Shown here: positions 3,484 to 28,608 of the stretch, one piece after another | Position numbering within the stretch: the first letter of the stretch is position 1 | Layout of the letters: every line of letters begins with the position of its first letter | From: Acidobacteriaceae bacterium | Lineage (GTDB): Bacteria; Acidobacteriota; Terriglobia; Terriglobales; Acidobacteriaceae | Assembly: GCA_035944135.1 (NCBI GenBank) | Contig: DASZBM010000004.1 | Location: 124,001-188,000, forward strand | DNA length: 64,000 bases | Direction of reading: 5' to 3' | Notes under the pieces: model-generated | The model's input: only the letters and a program-made list of their open reading frames with translations | Told to the model about the DNA's origin: nothing | The model's database searches: none | Program-made: the position numbers and the translations under genes

Positions 3484-3769
3484 GAGGCTAGAGGGAAAGC
3501 AAAGACCGACCCACGGGGCCGTGTGTGAAGCGCTGGTGAACCCGTCCTAAGACGGTGGGACCCGGCCGTGGCTCTTCAGGCATTCCGGACTGGCGGACGT
3601 TGCACACCGAACCATGTCTACGAGCTAGGCCCCTGTTCATTGAATGTTGGTTCAACCAGCGTGGATCACTGTCACCTGCTTTGCAGGCCGGTCTCTGGGT
3701 TGGATGCTAGCCGCTCTTCGCCAGATTGGCAAACCGCCATCGGTAACCCGTGTCTCGCCGCACGAGATG

Positions 3770-24787: not shown

Positions 24788-25106
24788 TTGTGAGCGACGC
24801 CCTGCATGTGTACGCGTCCAAGGCCGGAGTGGATTGATAGGAGCTGCAGAACGCAAAGAATCTTCGCAGGGCGTGAAAATATTTTCCGGCTTTTGTGGGG
24901 GCGGTCACCGTGAAAATGTGTGATCGCAGGCAACCCCGGGCTGGAATCGAAAACCTGCGGGAAGGCATTGGCGACCGAATGGCGCGGGGGAACGCGATGA
25001 AAGTGGTGGTGAATTTTCCCTGGTACTTATGATTTGCGTGGGTGGGAATTGTGAGAGTAGGGAGGAATGTAAGTTATTTTTTCGGGAAAATGCTTGCGTT
25101 TTTCTG
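24788..25106. other. Intergenic region without recognised genes
   Basis: These 319 bases should hold the promoter of the ferritin-like operon (minus strand) and that of the RNA array (plus strand). I see AT-rich patches (AAATATTTT near 24888, TTATTTTTTCGGG near 25073) but no convincing -35/-10 pair and no coding sequence. Confidence 0.5.
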
Positions 25107-25234
25107 TCCAGTGGTGCACATTAACTTCTGCGTAGGAGTTAGTCCGATGACATTGCATCCATACATAACGATGCGTAGGTCGCAAGAAGAGGTCAATCTC
25201 TTCGGCGATCGCCGGACTGCACTCGCCTCCTGGT
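25107..25234 (+). ncRNA. Possible divergent sixth Y-RNA-like element
   Basis: The 5' end reads TCCAGTGGTGCACATTAACTTC, close to the 5' half of the third array RNA (TCCAGTGGTG...TTACTTC). CCAG can pair with CTGG at 25230-25233, GTGCA (25114) with TGCAC (25218), and AGTCCG (25141-25146) with CGGACT (25213-25218), though the last two partners share a base. It departs from the consensus: the 3' ATTCC motif is missing and the second stem is weak. It may be a decayed copy or an unrelated structured leader. Confidence 0.3.
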
Positions 25235-25287
25235 CGTAAATCAGTTCGGACCAACCTACGCAAAGTAGTCCGAAAAATTTAACTAGT

Positions 25288-25367
25288 TATCAGGATGGCG
25301 AAGAAGGCAGTTACTTCGACTGTTAATCGACTCCTTACGGCACTGTCTTCGTTCATTCCTCCTGATA
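25288..25367 (+). ncRNA. Y RNA 1 (Ro60-associated RNA array)
   Basis: This is an 80-nt RNA with no extra module. The closing stem is TATCAGGA / TCCTGATA (8 bp). After an asymmetric loop (5' TG, 3' TCATTCC) comes the second stem GCGAAGA / TCTTCGT (25298-25304 with 25346-25352, one G-U) and three more pairs, CAG / CTG. The shared motif TTACTTC follows at 25311-25317. The apical part is short. Matching architecture in four further tandem copies and the downstream Ro60 gene support a Y RNA. Ends are inferred from the stems, not mapped. Confidence 0.78.
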
Positions 25368-25371
25368 GCTC

Positions 25372-25467
25372 TCCTGTCAGTGGCGCATTGAATGGCTACT
25401 TCTCTGGCAGATCCGCAAGGATCGGGTTCGAATCCCGTCTGCCATTCAGAACTATTCCCTGACAGGA
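25372..25467 (+). ncRNA. Y RNA 2 with compact tRNA-like module
   Basis: The closing stem is TCCTGTCAG / CTGACAGGA (9 bp), then TGGCGCA opposite AACTATTCC, then the second stem TTGAATGG / CCATTCAG (8 bp, one G-U) and CTACTTC at 25396-25402. The apical module (25405-25444) has a stem TGGCAGA / TCTGCCA, a hairpin ATCC-GCAA-GGAT with a GNRA loop, and a perfect T-arm CGGG-TTCGAAT-CCCG. This gives acceptor plus T arm, with the small hairpin in place of the D/anticodon arms. The last three bases of the module stem compete with the second stem. tRNA mimicry is known for YrlA-type bacterial Y RNAs. Confidence 0.82.
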
Positions 25468-25480
25468 ATGCGCTTCCTGC

Positions 25481-25502
25481 GCAAACGCGAAACTGCGTTT
25501 GC
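25481..25502 (+). other. Hairpin between Y RNA 2 and 3
   Basis: A perfect 8-bp stem, GCAAACGC / GCGTTTGC, closes the loop GAAACT. There is no U tract after it, so a processing site is more likely than a terminator if the array is one transcript. Confidence 0.5.
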
Positions 25503-25509
25503 ACGGGAT

Positions 25510-25595
25510 GTCCAGTGGTGAAAGAGACGAGTTACTTCTGCCTTGACACGGACGCAGGACTAGAAACCTGCACTCATCTCGAGCGTTCCCTGGAT
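25510..25595 (+). ncRNA. Y RNA 3
   Basis: The closing stem is TCCAG / CTGGA (25511-25515 with 25590-25594) plus one G-U pair. The 5' loop strand is TGGTGAAA and the 3' strand GAGCGTTCC. The second stem is GAGACGAG / CTCATCTC with a single C-A mismatch, followed by TTACTTC at 25532-25538. The apical hairpin GCAGG-ACTAGAAA-CCTGC (25554-25571) has the same stem as the T arm of Y RNA 4 but a changed 8-nt loop, so it looks like a degenerate T arm. Confidence 0.72.
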
Positions 25596-25616
25596 TACGC
25601 ATTTGCTGAAAACAAA

Positions 25617-25750
25617 TTGGCCGGTGGCGCAGAGAACAGTTACTTCGCCTCATAAGCGGGTGGACGCAGGTTCGAATCCTGCCATGGAAGTAATTCCATG
25701 TAGCTCAGTGGAAGAGCACCTTGTCTGTTCTCGACTTATTCCCCGGCCAA
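25617..25750 (+). ncRNA. Y RNA 4 carrying a circularly permuted tRNA-like domain
   Basis: This is the longest member, 134 nt. The closing stem is TTGGCCGG / CCGGCCAA (8 bp, perfect). TGGCGCA faces GACTTATTCC in the internal loop. The second stem is GAGAACAG / CTGTTCTC (25632-25639 with 25725-25732, perfect). TTACTTC is at 25640-25646. The apical part is a tRNA-like domain described as a separate entry. The stems alone, sixteen Watson-Crick pairs across more than 100 nt, make the RNA structure very unlikely to be chance. Confidence 0.87.
25644..25718 (+). other. Circularly permuted tRNA-like domain inside Y RNA 4
   Basis: In order: an anticodon arm TTCGC-CTCATAA-GCGGG (5 pairs, two U-G; U33 and anticodon CAU in place); a 5-nt variable region TGGAC; a T arm GCAGG-TTCGAAT-CCTGC; the 3' acceptor strand CATGGAA; a GTAA loop; the 5' acceptor strand TTCCATG; TA (positions 8-9); a D arm GCTC-AGTGGAA-GAGC with the GG pair; then A26. 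Every tRNA element is present, but the chain is opened between positions 26 and 27 and the acceptor ends are joined by a GNRA loop. No CCA end can exist. The anticodon stem overlaps the TTACTTC motif, so the two may be alternative folds. Confidence 0.8.
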
Positions 25751-25792
25751 CTAACTTAGCCAGCGCTGCTGGTTAGAAAGGCGAAGCCTGCC

Positions 25793-26128
25793 ATGGGCAA
25801 GCTACCGATAAAGAACGGAACCCCGGTGGGCTCCGTGTCACTGTGCAGAACCTGCACGAGCGCACAGATCATGACAGGCTTCAGGGAGTCGGAGCTGATC
25901 ACGATCTGCGACAACGTTCGTCCCAACCTGGTCGTGCCGTTCAATGTGTATGAATGCACCGGCTATTACGACAAGAACAGGCCCAGCTGGGACGAGATGA
26001 AGAAGCTGGCGATCCATGTTGAACCTCACTCTACGTTGAAACCTGTCGGGTTCAAGACCGGTGTTGGATTCACGCAGGCAACGTCGGTTCGAGTCGGCGC
26101 GGACGACGAAGACGAGCTCGATGACTAA
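25793..26128 (+). CDS. Small cysteine-containing protein of unknown function, linked to Ro60/Y RNAs
   Basis: I do not recognise this 111-aa protein. It has CxxC at C18-C21 (SLCRTCTSA), then C39 (TICDN) and C55 (VYECTGYYD), a spacing compatible with a four-Cys zinc site. The centre, NVRPNLVVPFNVYECTGY, looks structured, and the last ten residues are very acidic (ADDEDELDD). No signal or membrane segment is seen. It lies 42 bp after Y RNA 4 and ends 8 bp before Y RNA 5, all on the strand of the Ro60 gene, so a role in Y RNA or Ro60 function is a reasonable guess only. Confidence 0.72.
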   Translation: MGKLPIKNGTPVGSVSLCRTCTSAQIMTGFRESELITICDNVRPNLVVPFNVYECTGYYDKNRPSWDEMKKLAIHVEPHSTLKPVGFKTGVGFTQATSVRVGADDEDELDD

Positions 26129-26136
26129 TTGAAGAT

Positions 26137-26244
26137 TCGCCGGTGGCGCAGACGACGGTTACTTCATCGGGTAATCCCCGATCACCAAAAAAGCACGTGT
26201 TGTCTGCCTGCTGCCGTATCCCGTTGTCGTTTATTCCCCGGCGA
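26137..26244 (+). ncRNA. Y RNA 5
   Basis: The closing stem is TCGCCGG / CCGGCGA (26137-26143 with 26238-26244). TGGCGCA faces GTTTATTCC (internal loop identical to Y RNA 4 on the 5' side). The second stem is GACGACGG / CCGTTGTC, 8 bp with one G-U. TTACTTC is at 26159-26165. The apex has a hairpin ATCGGG-TAATC-CCCGAT and an A-rich stretch, with no T-arm sequence. It lies between the small Cys protein and the Ro60 gene and could be cut from a common transcript. Confidence 0.82.
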
Positions 26245-26319
26245 TTCAACTTCGCGAGTGACTCGGAGTTACCAACTCGCGGAATTTGCAGCAACAGCAC
26301 TTACAGAAGGAGGTGCGCG

Positions 26320-27639
26320 ATGAAGCTGAACATTTTGAAGTTTGCCCATCTCGCTCGGCCACGCACCCACGAGGGTGCGCCGGCTGTGGCCATTACCCCG
26401 GAGCAGGCGCTGCGGCGCTCTGTGCTCGCGTGCATGCTGTGGGAGGACGAGTTTTACGAGAGCGGCGTCACCATCGCCGCGCGGATCCGCGAGCTTGTAC
26501 CGAAGGTCGAGCCGGCGCGGGTCGCTGCGCTGGCGACCGAGGCGCGGACCTTGATGAAGCTGCGTCACGCTCCGTTGCTGCTTGTGCGCGAGATGGCGCG
26601 TCATGCCACTCACCGTGCGTTGGTTGCGCAGACGCTTGCGTCTGTGATCCAGCGTGCCGATGAGCTCTCGGAGTTCGTCGCCATCTACTGGGCCGATGGG
26701 CGTACGCCGCTCTCCGCACAGGTGAAGAAGGGCCTGGCGGCAGCGTTCACGCGGTTCGACGAGTACGCGCTCGCGAAGTACGACCGGGCAGCGGCGGTGC
26801 GTCTGCGTGACGTGCTGTTTCTCTCGCACGCGAAGCCTGTGGATGCAGCGCAGGCAGCGCTGTGGAAGCGGCTGATCGCGGGTGAGCTCGCGACTCCGGA
26901 TACGTGGGAGGTCGCGCTGTCGACTGGCGGCAAGGAGGCCGACAAGCGTGCAACGTGGGAGCGTCTGCTCGGTGAGCGCAAGCTCGGGGCGCTGGCTTTG
27001 CTGCGCAACCTTCGCAACATGAAGGAGGCGCAGGTTGACGAGCGGCTTGTTGTCGAGGGACTCGCTGCGATGAAGACGGATCGCGTCCTTCCGTTCCGCT
27101 TCCTGGCTGCTACGCGGCATGCGCCGCAGTGGGAGGAGGCACTGGAGGCTGCAATGTTCCGGGCTGTCGCGGGCCGCGAGAAGCTGGCCGGACACACCGT
27201 CCTGTTGGTCGACGTGTCCGGGTCGATGGTCGCGCCGCTGTCACGGCGGTCGGAGATGCTGCGCACGGATGCGGCCTATGGACTGGCGATCCTGCTTCGC
27301 GAGACTGCAGAGAAGGTGAGCGTTTACACCTTCTCGAACGACGCGAAGCTGGTGCCACCGCGGCGTGGTTTCGCTCTACGTGATGCGATGGAGGCCAGCC
27401 AGCCGCACTCGGGTACGTACCTGGGTAAGGCACTGGATGCGGTCGAGGGATCGTATGACCGCATCGTTGTGGTTACCGACGAGCAGGCGCACGACCGGGT
27501 CGCTGCACCGCGCGGACGGGGCTACGTGGTGAACGTGGCCAGCGCACGCAACGGCGTGGGGTACGGACCGTGGACGCACATCGACGGCTGGAGCGAGGCC
27601 GTCATTGACTACATCCGCGAGGCAGAGCGCGCGGGTTAA
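26320..27639 (+). CDS. rsr: Ro60/Rsr orthologue (TROVE plus von Willebrand A domain)
   Basis: Ro proteins are ring-shaped RNA-binding proteins that hold Y RNAs and misfolded RNAs, and in bacteria work with exonucleases such as PNPase. The 439-aa protein has HEAT-like TROVE helices (about 20-285) with EDEFYESGVTIAARI, and a vWA domain with a complete MIDAS: LVDVSGSM (D298, S300, S302), SGTYLGKAL (T366) and VVTDEQ (D387). It is shorter than animal Ro60 (about 540 aa). ATG 26320 follows AGAAGGAGG at close to ideal spacing; the frame is open upstream but runs through Y RNA 5 and is rejected. The upstream Y RNA array strongly supports the assignment. Confidence 0.93.
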   Translation: MKLNILKFAHLARPRTHEGAPAVAITPEQALRRSVLACMLWEDEFYESGVTIAARIRELVPKVEPARVAALATEARTLMKLRHAPLLLVREMARHATHRALVAQTLASVIQRADELSEFVAIYWADGRTPLSAQVKKGLAAAFTRFDEYALAKYDRAAAVRLRDVLFLSHAKPVDAAQAALWKRLIAGELATPDTWEVALSTGGKEADKRATWERLLGERKLGALALLRNLRNMKEAQVDERLVVEGLAAMKTDRVLPFRFLAATRHAPQWEEALEAAMFRAVAGREKLAGHTVLLVDVSGSMVAPLSRRSEMLRTDAAYGLAILLRETAEKVSVYTFSNDAKLVPPRRGFALRDAMEASQPHSGTYLGKALDAVEGSYDRIVVVTDEQAHDRVAAPRGRGYVVNVASARNGVGYGPWTHIDGWSEAVIDYIREAERAG

Positions 27640-27644
27640 CCATT

Positions 27645-27681
27645 GCATGCTGGCAGGCGCTTGTCTGGGCCTGCCGCATGC
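27645..27681 (+). terminator. Strong hairpin just after the Ro60 gene
   Basis: GCATGC plus GGCAGGC (one bulged T between them) pairs with GCCTGCC plus GCATGC, a 13-bp stem around a 10-nt loop. It starts five bases past the stop. No U tract follows, so it could be a Rho-type or 3'-end-protecting structure rather than a classic terminator. Confidence 0.55.
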
Positions 27682-27717
27682 AGCTGTATTGATGGACTGG
27701 CTTACGAAAGCATTCGG

Positions 27718-28608
27718 CTACGAGGGCCAGACGCGGGTGGCGGTTCCGGCGAGGAGTTGCCGGTGCTCGGCTTTGGAGAGGAATGGAAGGTGGTCGCGAT
27801 AGAGAGCGACGCGGCGGTCGTAGCTGAGGAGCTCTGGTTTGATGGGCCAGTCGGTTCCCCACATGAGGCGGTTGGTGCCGAAGGAGTCGCGCAGACGAGC
27901 GATCATGGCGAGCACGTCGGGGTAGGGATAGGGGAGTTTGGAGAGAGACCACGGGTGGGAGACTTTGAGGTAGAGGTTTGGATAACGGGCTAGTGAGCGC
28001 AGGAGTTCGAAGCCTTGTGCGTCGTCGACGGGGCAGTCGGCCATGTGATCGATGACGGTAGTGAGCGCGGGGAATTTGTCGAGTAAGGGAACGATGTCGG
28101 GGAGACGGCCGACGGGCAAAAGCAAGGTCATGGGGACCTTGAGGTCTTCGCAGCGCTTCCAGAGAGGCGGCATGAGTGGGTCGCGGATCCAGTCTCCGGT
28201 GGCATTGGCGGCCGGGCTGAGGCGAACGCCGCGGCAGCCCTGGTCGGTCCAGTAAGAGAGATGGTCGGGTGCGGCTGGGTCCTGCGGGTCGACGCGGCAG
28301 ACTGCGGCGAATTTTTCCGGATGCGCGCGCAGCGTGGCGACGAGGAAGCGGTTGTCCCACTTGTAGTGAATGACCTGGATGAGCACGGTCCTGGAGATGT
28401 TGTTGGAGCGCATTTTTGCGAGAAGCGAGGAGGGTGAGGCGTCGACGTTGGGTGGGACGTTTGCGCCGGGGGAGAACGGGAAACGGGGGTTAGTTTCCCA
28501 AACGTGGACGTGGGAATCGACAAGGTAGTAGGGCAGCGGCGCGGCGGATAACGCGTTGGGCGCGCATGCGGCTGCGACTGCCGATGCGAGGAAGTCTCTG
28601 CGGTTCAT
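27718..28608 (-). CDS. Amidohydrolase_2-family metal-dependent hydrolase, Tat-type signal
   Basis: This 296-aa TIM-barrel protein starts with MNRRDFLASAVAAACAPNAL, a short Tat-like signal. The active-site signs are DSHVHVWE near residue 31, IDHMADCP and WGTDWPIKPEL, as in sugar-lactonases and related amidohydrolases (L-rhamnono- or L-fuconolactonase type). It should be periplasmic. The substrate is not known. It is convergent with the Ro60 gene, 78 bp apart. Confidence 0.86.
   Translation of the reverse strand: MNRRDFLASAVAAACAPNALSAAPLPYYLVDSHVHVWETNPRFPFSPGANVPPNVDASPSSLLAKMRSNNISRTVLIQVIHYKWDNRFLVATLRAHPEKFAAVCRVDPQDPAAPDHLSYWTDQGCRGVRLSPAANATGDWIRDPLMPPLWKRCEDLKVPMTLLLPVGRLPDIVPLLDKFPALTTVIDHMADCPVDDAQGFELLRSLARYPNLYLKVSHPWSLSKLPYPYPDVLAMIARLRDSFGTNRLMWGTDWPIKPELLSYDRRVALYRDHLPFLSKAEHRQLLAGTATRVWPS

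Follow-up and report, generated by a model that had tools for sequence, protein, structure and literature searches.

A predicted array of modular Y RNAs with tRNA-like apices beside a Ro60-type gene of an Acidobacteriaceae bacterium

The array, its common module and its linkage to Ro

The window considered here is a stretch of 64,000 nucleotides (nt) from an Acidobacteriaceae bacterium of soil (assembly GCA_035944135.1, contig DASZBM010000004.1, positions 124,001 to 188,000 of the forward strand), the genome of which measures 4.43 Mb in 10 contigs and is 99.85% complete. It carries a gene for a Ro60-type protein, preceded by five small RNA-like elements, named Y1 to Y5, which span 25286-26244; the Ro gene starts 75 nt past Y5 (Table 1). 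Judged from sequence, there is a high chance that these elements are Ro-anchored modular Y RNAs whose heads mimic transfer RNAs (tRNAs). The comparison of loci establishes the common module, the pairing of its stems despite changes in their sequence, the linkage to Ro, the swapping of apices, and the presence of tRNA-like parts and anticodon-type loops. An earlier sequence-only reading of the window had proposed five RNA elements with a common module, and all five were located, together with every closing stem that it quoted. Its idea of a family of Y-like RNAs with differing apical domains beside one Ro gene is likewise borne out by the comparison. It missed the 111-amino-acid open reading frame (ORF), the conserved leader and the tRNA-like apices, and the tRNA and anticodon mimicry, of which it made no mention, is more surprising than the array itself.

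Table 1. Features of the Ro locus, in positions of the window
Feature	Position	Strand	Remarks
Conserved leader, 5′ of the array	25116..25263	+	closed by the stem TGCGTAGG/CCTACGCA; Y motif absent
Y1, 84 nt	25286..25369	+	module; anticodon-stem-loop-like apex hairpin, loop CUGUUAA 25320-25326
Y2, 96 nt	25372..25467	+	module and tRNA-like T-arm hairpin
Y3, 86 nt	25510..25595	+	module; replaced apex holding CCUUGACACGG, loop UUGACAC 25543-25549
Y4, 134 nt	25617..25750	+	YrlA-like; permuted tRNA core, loop CUCAUAA 25649-25655
111-amino-acid ORF between Y4 and Y5	25793..26128	+	family of homologues, no known domain
Y5, 108 nt	26137..26244	+	module; apex without T-arm motif
Ro60-type protein, 439 amino acids	26320..27639	+	TROVE and vWA, Pfam

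The module has a fixed order: a closing stem particular to each RNA, the UGGYGNA box, a second stem, UACUUC, a variable apex, ..UUCC and the returning strand of the closing stem. UGGYGNA faces ..UUCC as an internal loop, and the limits of Y1 to Y5 are those given by a descriptor scan for this module. The elements thus have what marks a bacterial Y RNA in sequence, namely a closing stem with a conserved internal loop, encoded beside a Ro gene. The gene directly after the array, which the sequence-only reading had called TROVE/vWA, passes both Pfam cut-offs (TROVE 49.9 bits against 23, VWA_2 27.6 bits against 27), and its product belongs to the Ro60/Rsr proteins by these domains. Its profile matches the solved TROVE chains 9l5y and 9kop as well as RO60 chains. 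The DxSxS sequence, which we take to be the motif of the vWA domain, is invariant in all ten Ro sequences of alignment A1, and the nearest named relative among the matches listed is the protein of Granulicella mallensis (84% identical). The region 24950-27760 holds 0 promoter-like sites by a sigma-70 consensus scan and one terminator, on the minus strand only and below the shuffled mean, so no transcript can be drawn for the array.

A chance origin of the array was rejected on the counts of the motif and descriptor in the whole genome and on a test with swapped stems. The 5′ motif occurs in 13 copies in the 4.43 Mb, and the full stem descriptor is passed by the five array copies only; none of the other eight has both stems. 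The folding z-scores of Y1 to Y5 are -4.1, -3.2, -1.6, -3.9 and -2.9, which makes Y3 weak by energy. For the stem test, 242 distinct 5′ halves were taken by the motif alone, with no stem demanded, from 40 family loci and the window, 64 named loci, seven phage stretches and one plasmid stretch. The six-base partner of the closing stem follows right after the downstream UUCC in 182 of the 242, against a mean of 35 and a maximum of 50 for swapped stems (300 trials). The earlier claim that the stems differ and nevertheless pair is thus upheld across loci, on stems that were not selected for pairing. The descriptor also has a strong strand bias: 97 forward matches and one reverse match in the 40 family loci and the window (one forward match, in L061, was spurious and was dropped afterwards), and 182 forward and 0 reverse in the 64 named loci (one of them, in L141 with score 7, lies downstream of Ro), two sets which overlap in common genomes and are hence not independent. 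In 80 viral loci there were 104 forward and 4 reverse matches.

The linkage to Ro was addressed by a covariance-model search, which the sequence-only reading had proposed as a check and which supported it. The model R1 was built from 34 YrlA-like members, Y4 among them, and applied to 200 family genomes, in 47 of which Ro has a match. R1 matches 45 genomes, namely 38 of the 47 with Ro and 7 of the 153 without (Fisher p ~3e-25), and five of the seven matches in genomes lacking Ro are weak (E above 1e-4). The nine Ro-bearing genomes that it misses hold mostly Ro fragments; two (G051, G126) have full-length Ro near contig ends. In the window, R1 finds Y4, Y5 (54.1 bits) and Y2 (49.7 bits), and the genome-wide search adds Y1 (50.2 bits), unlisted in the window search, and nothing beyond the array.

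The sequence-only reading had regarded so long an array as exceptional, which is too strong. Among 42 named relatives with 4 kb of upstream sequence, the scan gave no module in 3, one in 3, two in 8, three in 11, four in 11, five in 5 and seven in 1; since 28 have at least three and 17 at least four, multi-module arrays are common among these relatives. In Deinococcus radiodurans, too, several small RNAs reportedly lie upstream of rsr.

tRNA-like parts of the apices

Of known RNA families, YrlA (Rfam RF02553) is close to Y4, the whole of which it matches at 43.3 bits (E 1.2e-7). In this comparison to Rfam, which had been suggested earlier, the score stays below the gathering threshold of 69, and none of Y1, Y2, Y3 and Y5 is matched by the YrlA model at E values up to 5. 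No YrlA match at the gathering threshold was reported for 36 other Ro loci either. Y4 alone of the array has the tRNA domain of YrlA, as its fold contains a T-arm, an acceptor hairpin and a D-arm in circularly permuted order. Y2 has a T-arm with no D-arm motif, and 17 nt about its T-loop are identical to part of the genome's own tRNA-Glu(UUC); Y1, Y3 and Y5 have neither arm. Y4 thus resembles YrlA in its closing stem beside a Ro gene and in its permuted core. It differs in that its internal loop is UGGYGNA/UUCC, in that it is one of five RNAs with different apices, and in an insert of 18 nt with an anticodon-type loop, where the Rfam consensus has no hairpin. It was already described that YrlA resembles the acceptor, D and T arms of tRNA (in a passage of PMC8394870) and that a bacterial Y RNA (6CU1) is circularly permuted relative to tRNA (likewise in part of PMC11472068).

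Plain tRNA genes were rejected as an explanation, with 0 tRNAs found by ARAGORN in the window. The Rfam tRNA model does not recognise Y4 as a tRNA (17.4 bits, under the threshold of 29); it places the anticodon arm on the Y4 hairpin with an E of 4.3, which is no better than chance.

The apices were counted in a set of 340 modules, kept after removal of duplicates and of modules with a score <6 or another internal loop. The 228 distinct bacterial modules comprise 75 with T-arm and D-arm, 51 with T-arm only, 43 short and 33 long ones without T-arm, and 26 others. RNAs that occupy corresponding places in different loci can carry different apices, which are thus interchangeable. An example is the place of Y3, where loci L031 and L032 have an RNA of 158 nt with the same 5′ strand of the second stem, AGAGACGAGU, and where the RNA of the window has its apex replaced. 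At the place of Y5, where the window RNA lacks the T-arm motif, L031 has a YrlA-like RNA (37.8 bits). The long class (L128:3124-3282 and 17 relatives, alignment A4) has its own fold, in which 22 of the 41 predicted pairs show two-sided change; one member, from L031, was searched and is matched by no Rfam family at E values up to 5.

The second likeness to tRNA concerns a minority of the apices, in which a 7-nt loop of the form YUNNNR[AC], as in anticodon loops, is found at a site directly past UACU. The reference consisted of 41 distinct anticodon loops from the 44 tRNAs of the window genome, used also for the RNAs of other hosts, and exact identity with one of them occurs in 25 of the 228 bacterial modules (300 shuffles of the apices give a mean of 0.39 and a maximum of 3) and in 13 of the 112 viral ones (mean 0.27, maximum 2). 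The identical loops are those of Asn, Met, Asp, Val, Trp, Pro, Lys, Tyr and Gly in bacteria, and of Asn, Lys, Ser, Thr, Trp, Phe and Cys in viruses. In the window itself, three of the RNAs have a loop identical to one of the genome's own tRNAs: Y1 to that of tRNA-Asn(GUU), Y3 to that of tRNA-Val(GAC) and Y4 to that of tRNA-Met(CAU). Y3 shares 11 nt with its tRNA, including two stem bases on each side; it stands outside the hairpin counts because only two pairs directly flank the loop.

The loop form also sits in frame. The loop form with a stem of at least three pairs is found at offsets 4 and 5 in 10 and 41 bacterial modules (0.6 per control frame) and in 12 and 11 viral ones (0.22). When modules are picked by the loop alone, a flanking stem of 3 bp is present in 49 of 76 bacterial cases (swapped: mean 16.3, maximum 29, 1000 trials) and in 21 of 42 viral cases (mean 4.6, maximum 12); where the loop form is absent, such a stem flanks the site in 30 of 152 bacterial and 20 of 70 viral modules. 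Among the matches listed in the literature search, with the main YrlA papers outside its reach, the passages retrieved describe no Y RNA array with anticodon-type loops. Of the 74 in-frame hairpins, 36 have U at position 36, compared with 10 of the 41 own tRNA loops. This excess of U36 amounts to a bias towards tRNAs that decode ANN codons.

Occurrence in phages, other hosts and tRNA arrays

Modules of this type extend beyond the phylum. Ro proteins 50-57% identical occur in phages of Brevundimonas, Xanthomonas and Caulobacter, and full modules were found in Xanthomonas phage Olaya (three), CcrColossus (six) and Bambus (two). At least one module is present in 45 of the best 80 of 89 loci from IMG/VR. 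An annotated tRNA-Ser of phage Gurke (L216:2769-2843) and an annotated tRNA-Gln of CcrColossus (L219:2131-2198) overlap Y RNAs, and both annotations are probably wrong; a practical gain of the comparison is that at least two phage tRNA annotations can be revisited in this way. A plasmid of D. gobiensis encodes a Ro protein 57% identical to that of the window, with two modules, and the isolate Azohydromonas aeria has two modules recognised by eye only. Some modules also lie in metagenome bins of uncertain naming (L177, L178, L179, L183, L186). The association of phage TROVE proteins with such RNAs has precedents: a jumbo-phage survey notes a TROVE protein, which in cells is a platform for RNA repair and has a partner resembling tRNA (PMC7824862), and Y RNAs were proposed near an Rsr homologue of a Listeria phage (PMC12282133). 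The passages concerned in these two papers contain no arrays bearing anticodon-type loops, unlike arrays of the window type. Two Brevundimonas phages also have a permuted transfer-messenger RNA (RF04321, ~58 bits) near the Ro locus (L216:6345-6690 and L218:6750-7007).

Nine places with an R1 match away from Ro were fetched. In five of them (L304-L308), a short Y RNA at about 1500-1573 is flanked by tRNA-Gln(UUG) and tRNA-Gln(CUG), within a stretch of 13 tRNAs called by ARAGORN; in three of the loci the descriptor scan recognises it as well, in L305 and L308 only R1 does. Locus L309 has a module near two tRNAs. In L310, the start codon of rtcB, as used here, is 23 nt past a Y RNA (1500-1636), and ARAGORN calls most of the apex of this RNA a tRNA-Ile(UAU) (1531-1607). 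No module was seen by the descriptor scan in L311 and L312. All three ORFs tested, those after the arrays of L304 and L305, which are cut at the locus edge, and that of L310, encode RtcB. Similarly, the rsr-yrlBA-rtcBA operon of Salmonella, as presented in parts of PMC7790460, combines Ro with more than one Y RNA and a repair theme, and some relatives of the window resemble it in having Y RNAs by rtcB. The window array differs from that operon in holding the 111-amino-acid ORF with four cysteines and in the lack of rtcB: the rsr-yrl-rtcBA arrangement, with rtcB in the operon, is not found here. For mycobacteria, passages of PMC12803027 raise the possibility that tRNA arrays serve as anti-defence units.

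Possible roles of the RNAs and remaining features of the locus

With a probability of about 0.6, the sequences suggest that the locus encodes Ro-anchored, tRNA-mimicking Y RNAs which act in tRNA damage, as a tether or as a decoy. We infer from the comparisons that these RNAs would be expressed, bind Ro, imitate tRNAs in three dimensions and perform one of these two actions. The common foot, consisting of the closing stem, the UGGYGNA/UUCC loop and the second stem, probably binds the Ro ring, in keeping with the binding by the lower stem of Y RNA in other systems (a passage of PMC4726728). The apices would be interchangeable effector heads deciding what the ring meets, and many appear to imitate parts of tRNA: the T-arm, the permuted core or the anticodon stem-loop. 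Because many heads bear tRNA faces and anticodon loops, tRNA-acting enzymes are the likeliest partners, and the heads most likely bring the Ro particle to such enzymes, above all those that cut or repair tRNAs. As tethers, they may act like the Y RNA that tethers PNPase in Deinococcus; as decoys, they would soak up anticodon-loop nucleases. Either action would fit the heads, the decoy being a possible reading and no more. YrlA has been suggested as a possible competitive inhibitor of an anticodon nuclease (in part of PMC7790460).

If so, one Ro gene would be served by swappable heads whose sequences hint at their targets, namely tRNAs and, for a sizeable minority, a given anticodon loop. Such heads turn the vague idea of quality control into tests of enzyme-head pairs, which bears on the role of the bacterial Ro60 particle. 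The phage arrays and the Y RNAs inside tRNA arrays near rtcB link Ro particles to conflicts over tRNA cleavage.

Several observations weigh against the tether or decoy role and the mimicry on which it builds, besides the limits given above with the counts, of which the overlap of the locus sets weakens the strand comparison and the use of loops from one genome narrows that of the anticodons. The whole window genome gave no RtcB match in a search that was positive in 9 of 14 control genomes, so coupling to repair is not universal. In Salmonella, YrlA fragments were undetected when tRNAs were cut, as reported in a section of PMC7790460, which argues against cutting there and not against inhibition. 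The scan found no module in 7 of the 40 family loci and in 6 of the 64 named loci; one of these six, L182, shows two RNAs with variant boxes by eye, and hence the descriptor scan undercounts. None of the six 5′ motifs of Gurke (L216) passes the strict scan, the fetched loci of Microcystis, crAss-like and Rhizobium phages (L220, L221, L222) have no modules, and neither have the other 35 of the IMG/VR loci. R1 misses Y3 in both the window and the genome-wide searches, and gives two chance-like matches in the window (43224 and 55744). Full-length or strong Ro is rare outside the family, as 22 of 396 genomes of a phylum sample match and those outside the family do so mostly weakly. Two oddly named bins, L134 (Rhodanobacteraceae) and L170 (Opitutia), are perhaps misbinned. 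As related sequences are not independent, the null models serve as guides and not as probabilities.

The anticodon hairpins are further weakened by energy and by number. The Y1 hairpin lies within 0.5 kcal/mol of the minimum with a pair probability of 0.38-0.41, that of Y3 has a pair probability of ~0.09, and neither is the minimum-energy fold; for Y4 it is ~0.06, and a 7-bp register with the loop CAUAAGC wins. The energy model thus prefers other registers, and the anticodon hairpin as a stable fold was dropped; the case for it is one of comparison and not of energy, and Y2 and Y5 are not covered. A strict in-frame hairpin occurs in only 51 of the 228 bacterial and 23 of the 112 viral modules, in 0 of the 33 long-class modules and in neither Y2 nor Y5, and Y3 fails the strict rule. 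After these class counts, the idea of an anticodon arm in every RNA was also dropped.

A tentative alternative, which we hold to be possible and no stronger than that, is that the array is a repertoire of Ro-protected baits, each showing a tRNA face, and several the anticodon loop of one particular tRNA, to nucleases that attack anticodon loops, be they from rivals, toxins or phage defences. The Y RNA would block the nuclease, or would be cut and so trigger the Ro particle. The diversification and swapping of the apices would be that of an arms race, the phage arrays would be a counter-defence, and in some hosts the baits would be kept within tRNA arrays with RtcB.

It is rather unlikely that the RNAs are scaffolds like those of the D. 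radiodurans Rsr/Y RNA/PNPase complex (RYPER), in which they would gate the ring and tether PNPase or other nucleases, the anticodon hairpins being roleless leftovers of tRNA capture. Tether and gate roles are described for the D. radiodurans Y RNA in the passages at hand, and the two systems would share a Ro ring and a Y RNA whose apex is an effector head; the window differs in having an array of RNAs with swapped apices. Y4 and its relatives have the T-arm, acceptor and D-arm as in YrlA, and most modules lack the strict anticodon hairpin, both of which agree with scaffolding. However, leftovers ought to decay, and the loop-flanking stems pair far above the swapped controls. The short class A, moreover, has no T-arm, yet 18 of its 43 bacterial members keep the in-frame hairpin, 10 of them with a tRNA loop of the window genome.

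An improbable reading takes the hairpins and T-arms as substrates or sinks of tRNA-modifying enzymes, with the modification marking or stabilising the Y RNAs. The excess of U36 would fit a role of an enzyme that reads U36-A37; the anticodon triplets are diverse, and no single anticodon-modifying enzyme would fit them all. YrlA itself is a substrate of DusA and TruB, as a passage of PMC8394870 states. That the elements are degenerate tRNA genes beside a Ro gene, with no function as Y RNAs, is very improbable and was already disfavoured: Y2 and Y4 have stretches of 14-17 nt in common with own tRNAs, but ARAGORN calls nothing in the window, and the conserved module with compensated stems and the linkage to Ro speak against decay.

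The ORF between Y4 and Y5 has 267 homologues, and four cysteines (C18, C21, C39, C55) are invariant in the alignment of 38 of them with the query. It is present in 28 of the 40 family Ro loci and 37 of the 64 named ones, and was not found in L177-L180, L182, L183 and L186, which belong to other groups. Searches of Pfam, PADLOC, PHROGs and NCBIfam gave no match at the limits used; a PADLOC match to the defence family DpdH (E 0.008, 13 bits) was ignored. Its AlphaFold2 model (mean predicted local distance difference test score, pLDDT, 39.7; predicted template modelling score, pTM, 0.23) was not used. The leader has blastn matches in 12 fetched loci, some of the same genome, with 70-88% identity over the aligned parts. 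A consensus fold of 10 sequences has 29 pairs, 5 of them with two-sided change; as the total covariation term is +0.09, its structure is weakly supported, and the leader could be a further RNA, the sixth of the locus, or have a regulatory role. Elsewhere in the window, a 6S RNA is present on the minus strand at 3504-3692 (Rfam RF00013, 55 bits, gathering threshold 46.4).

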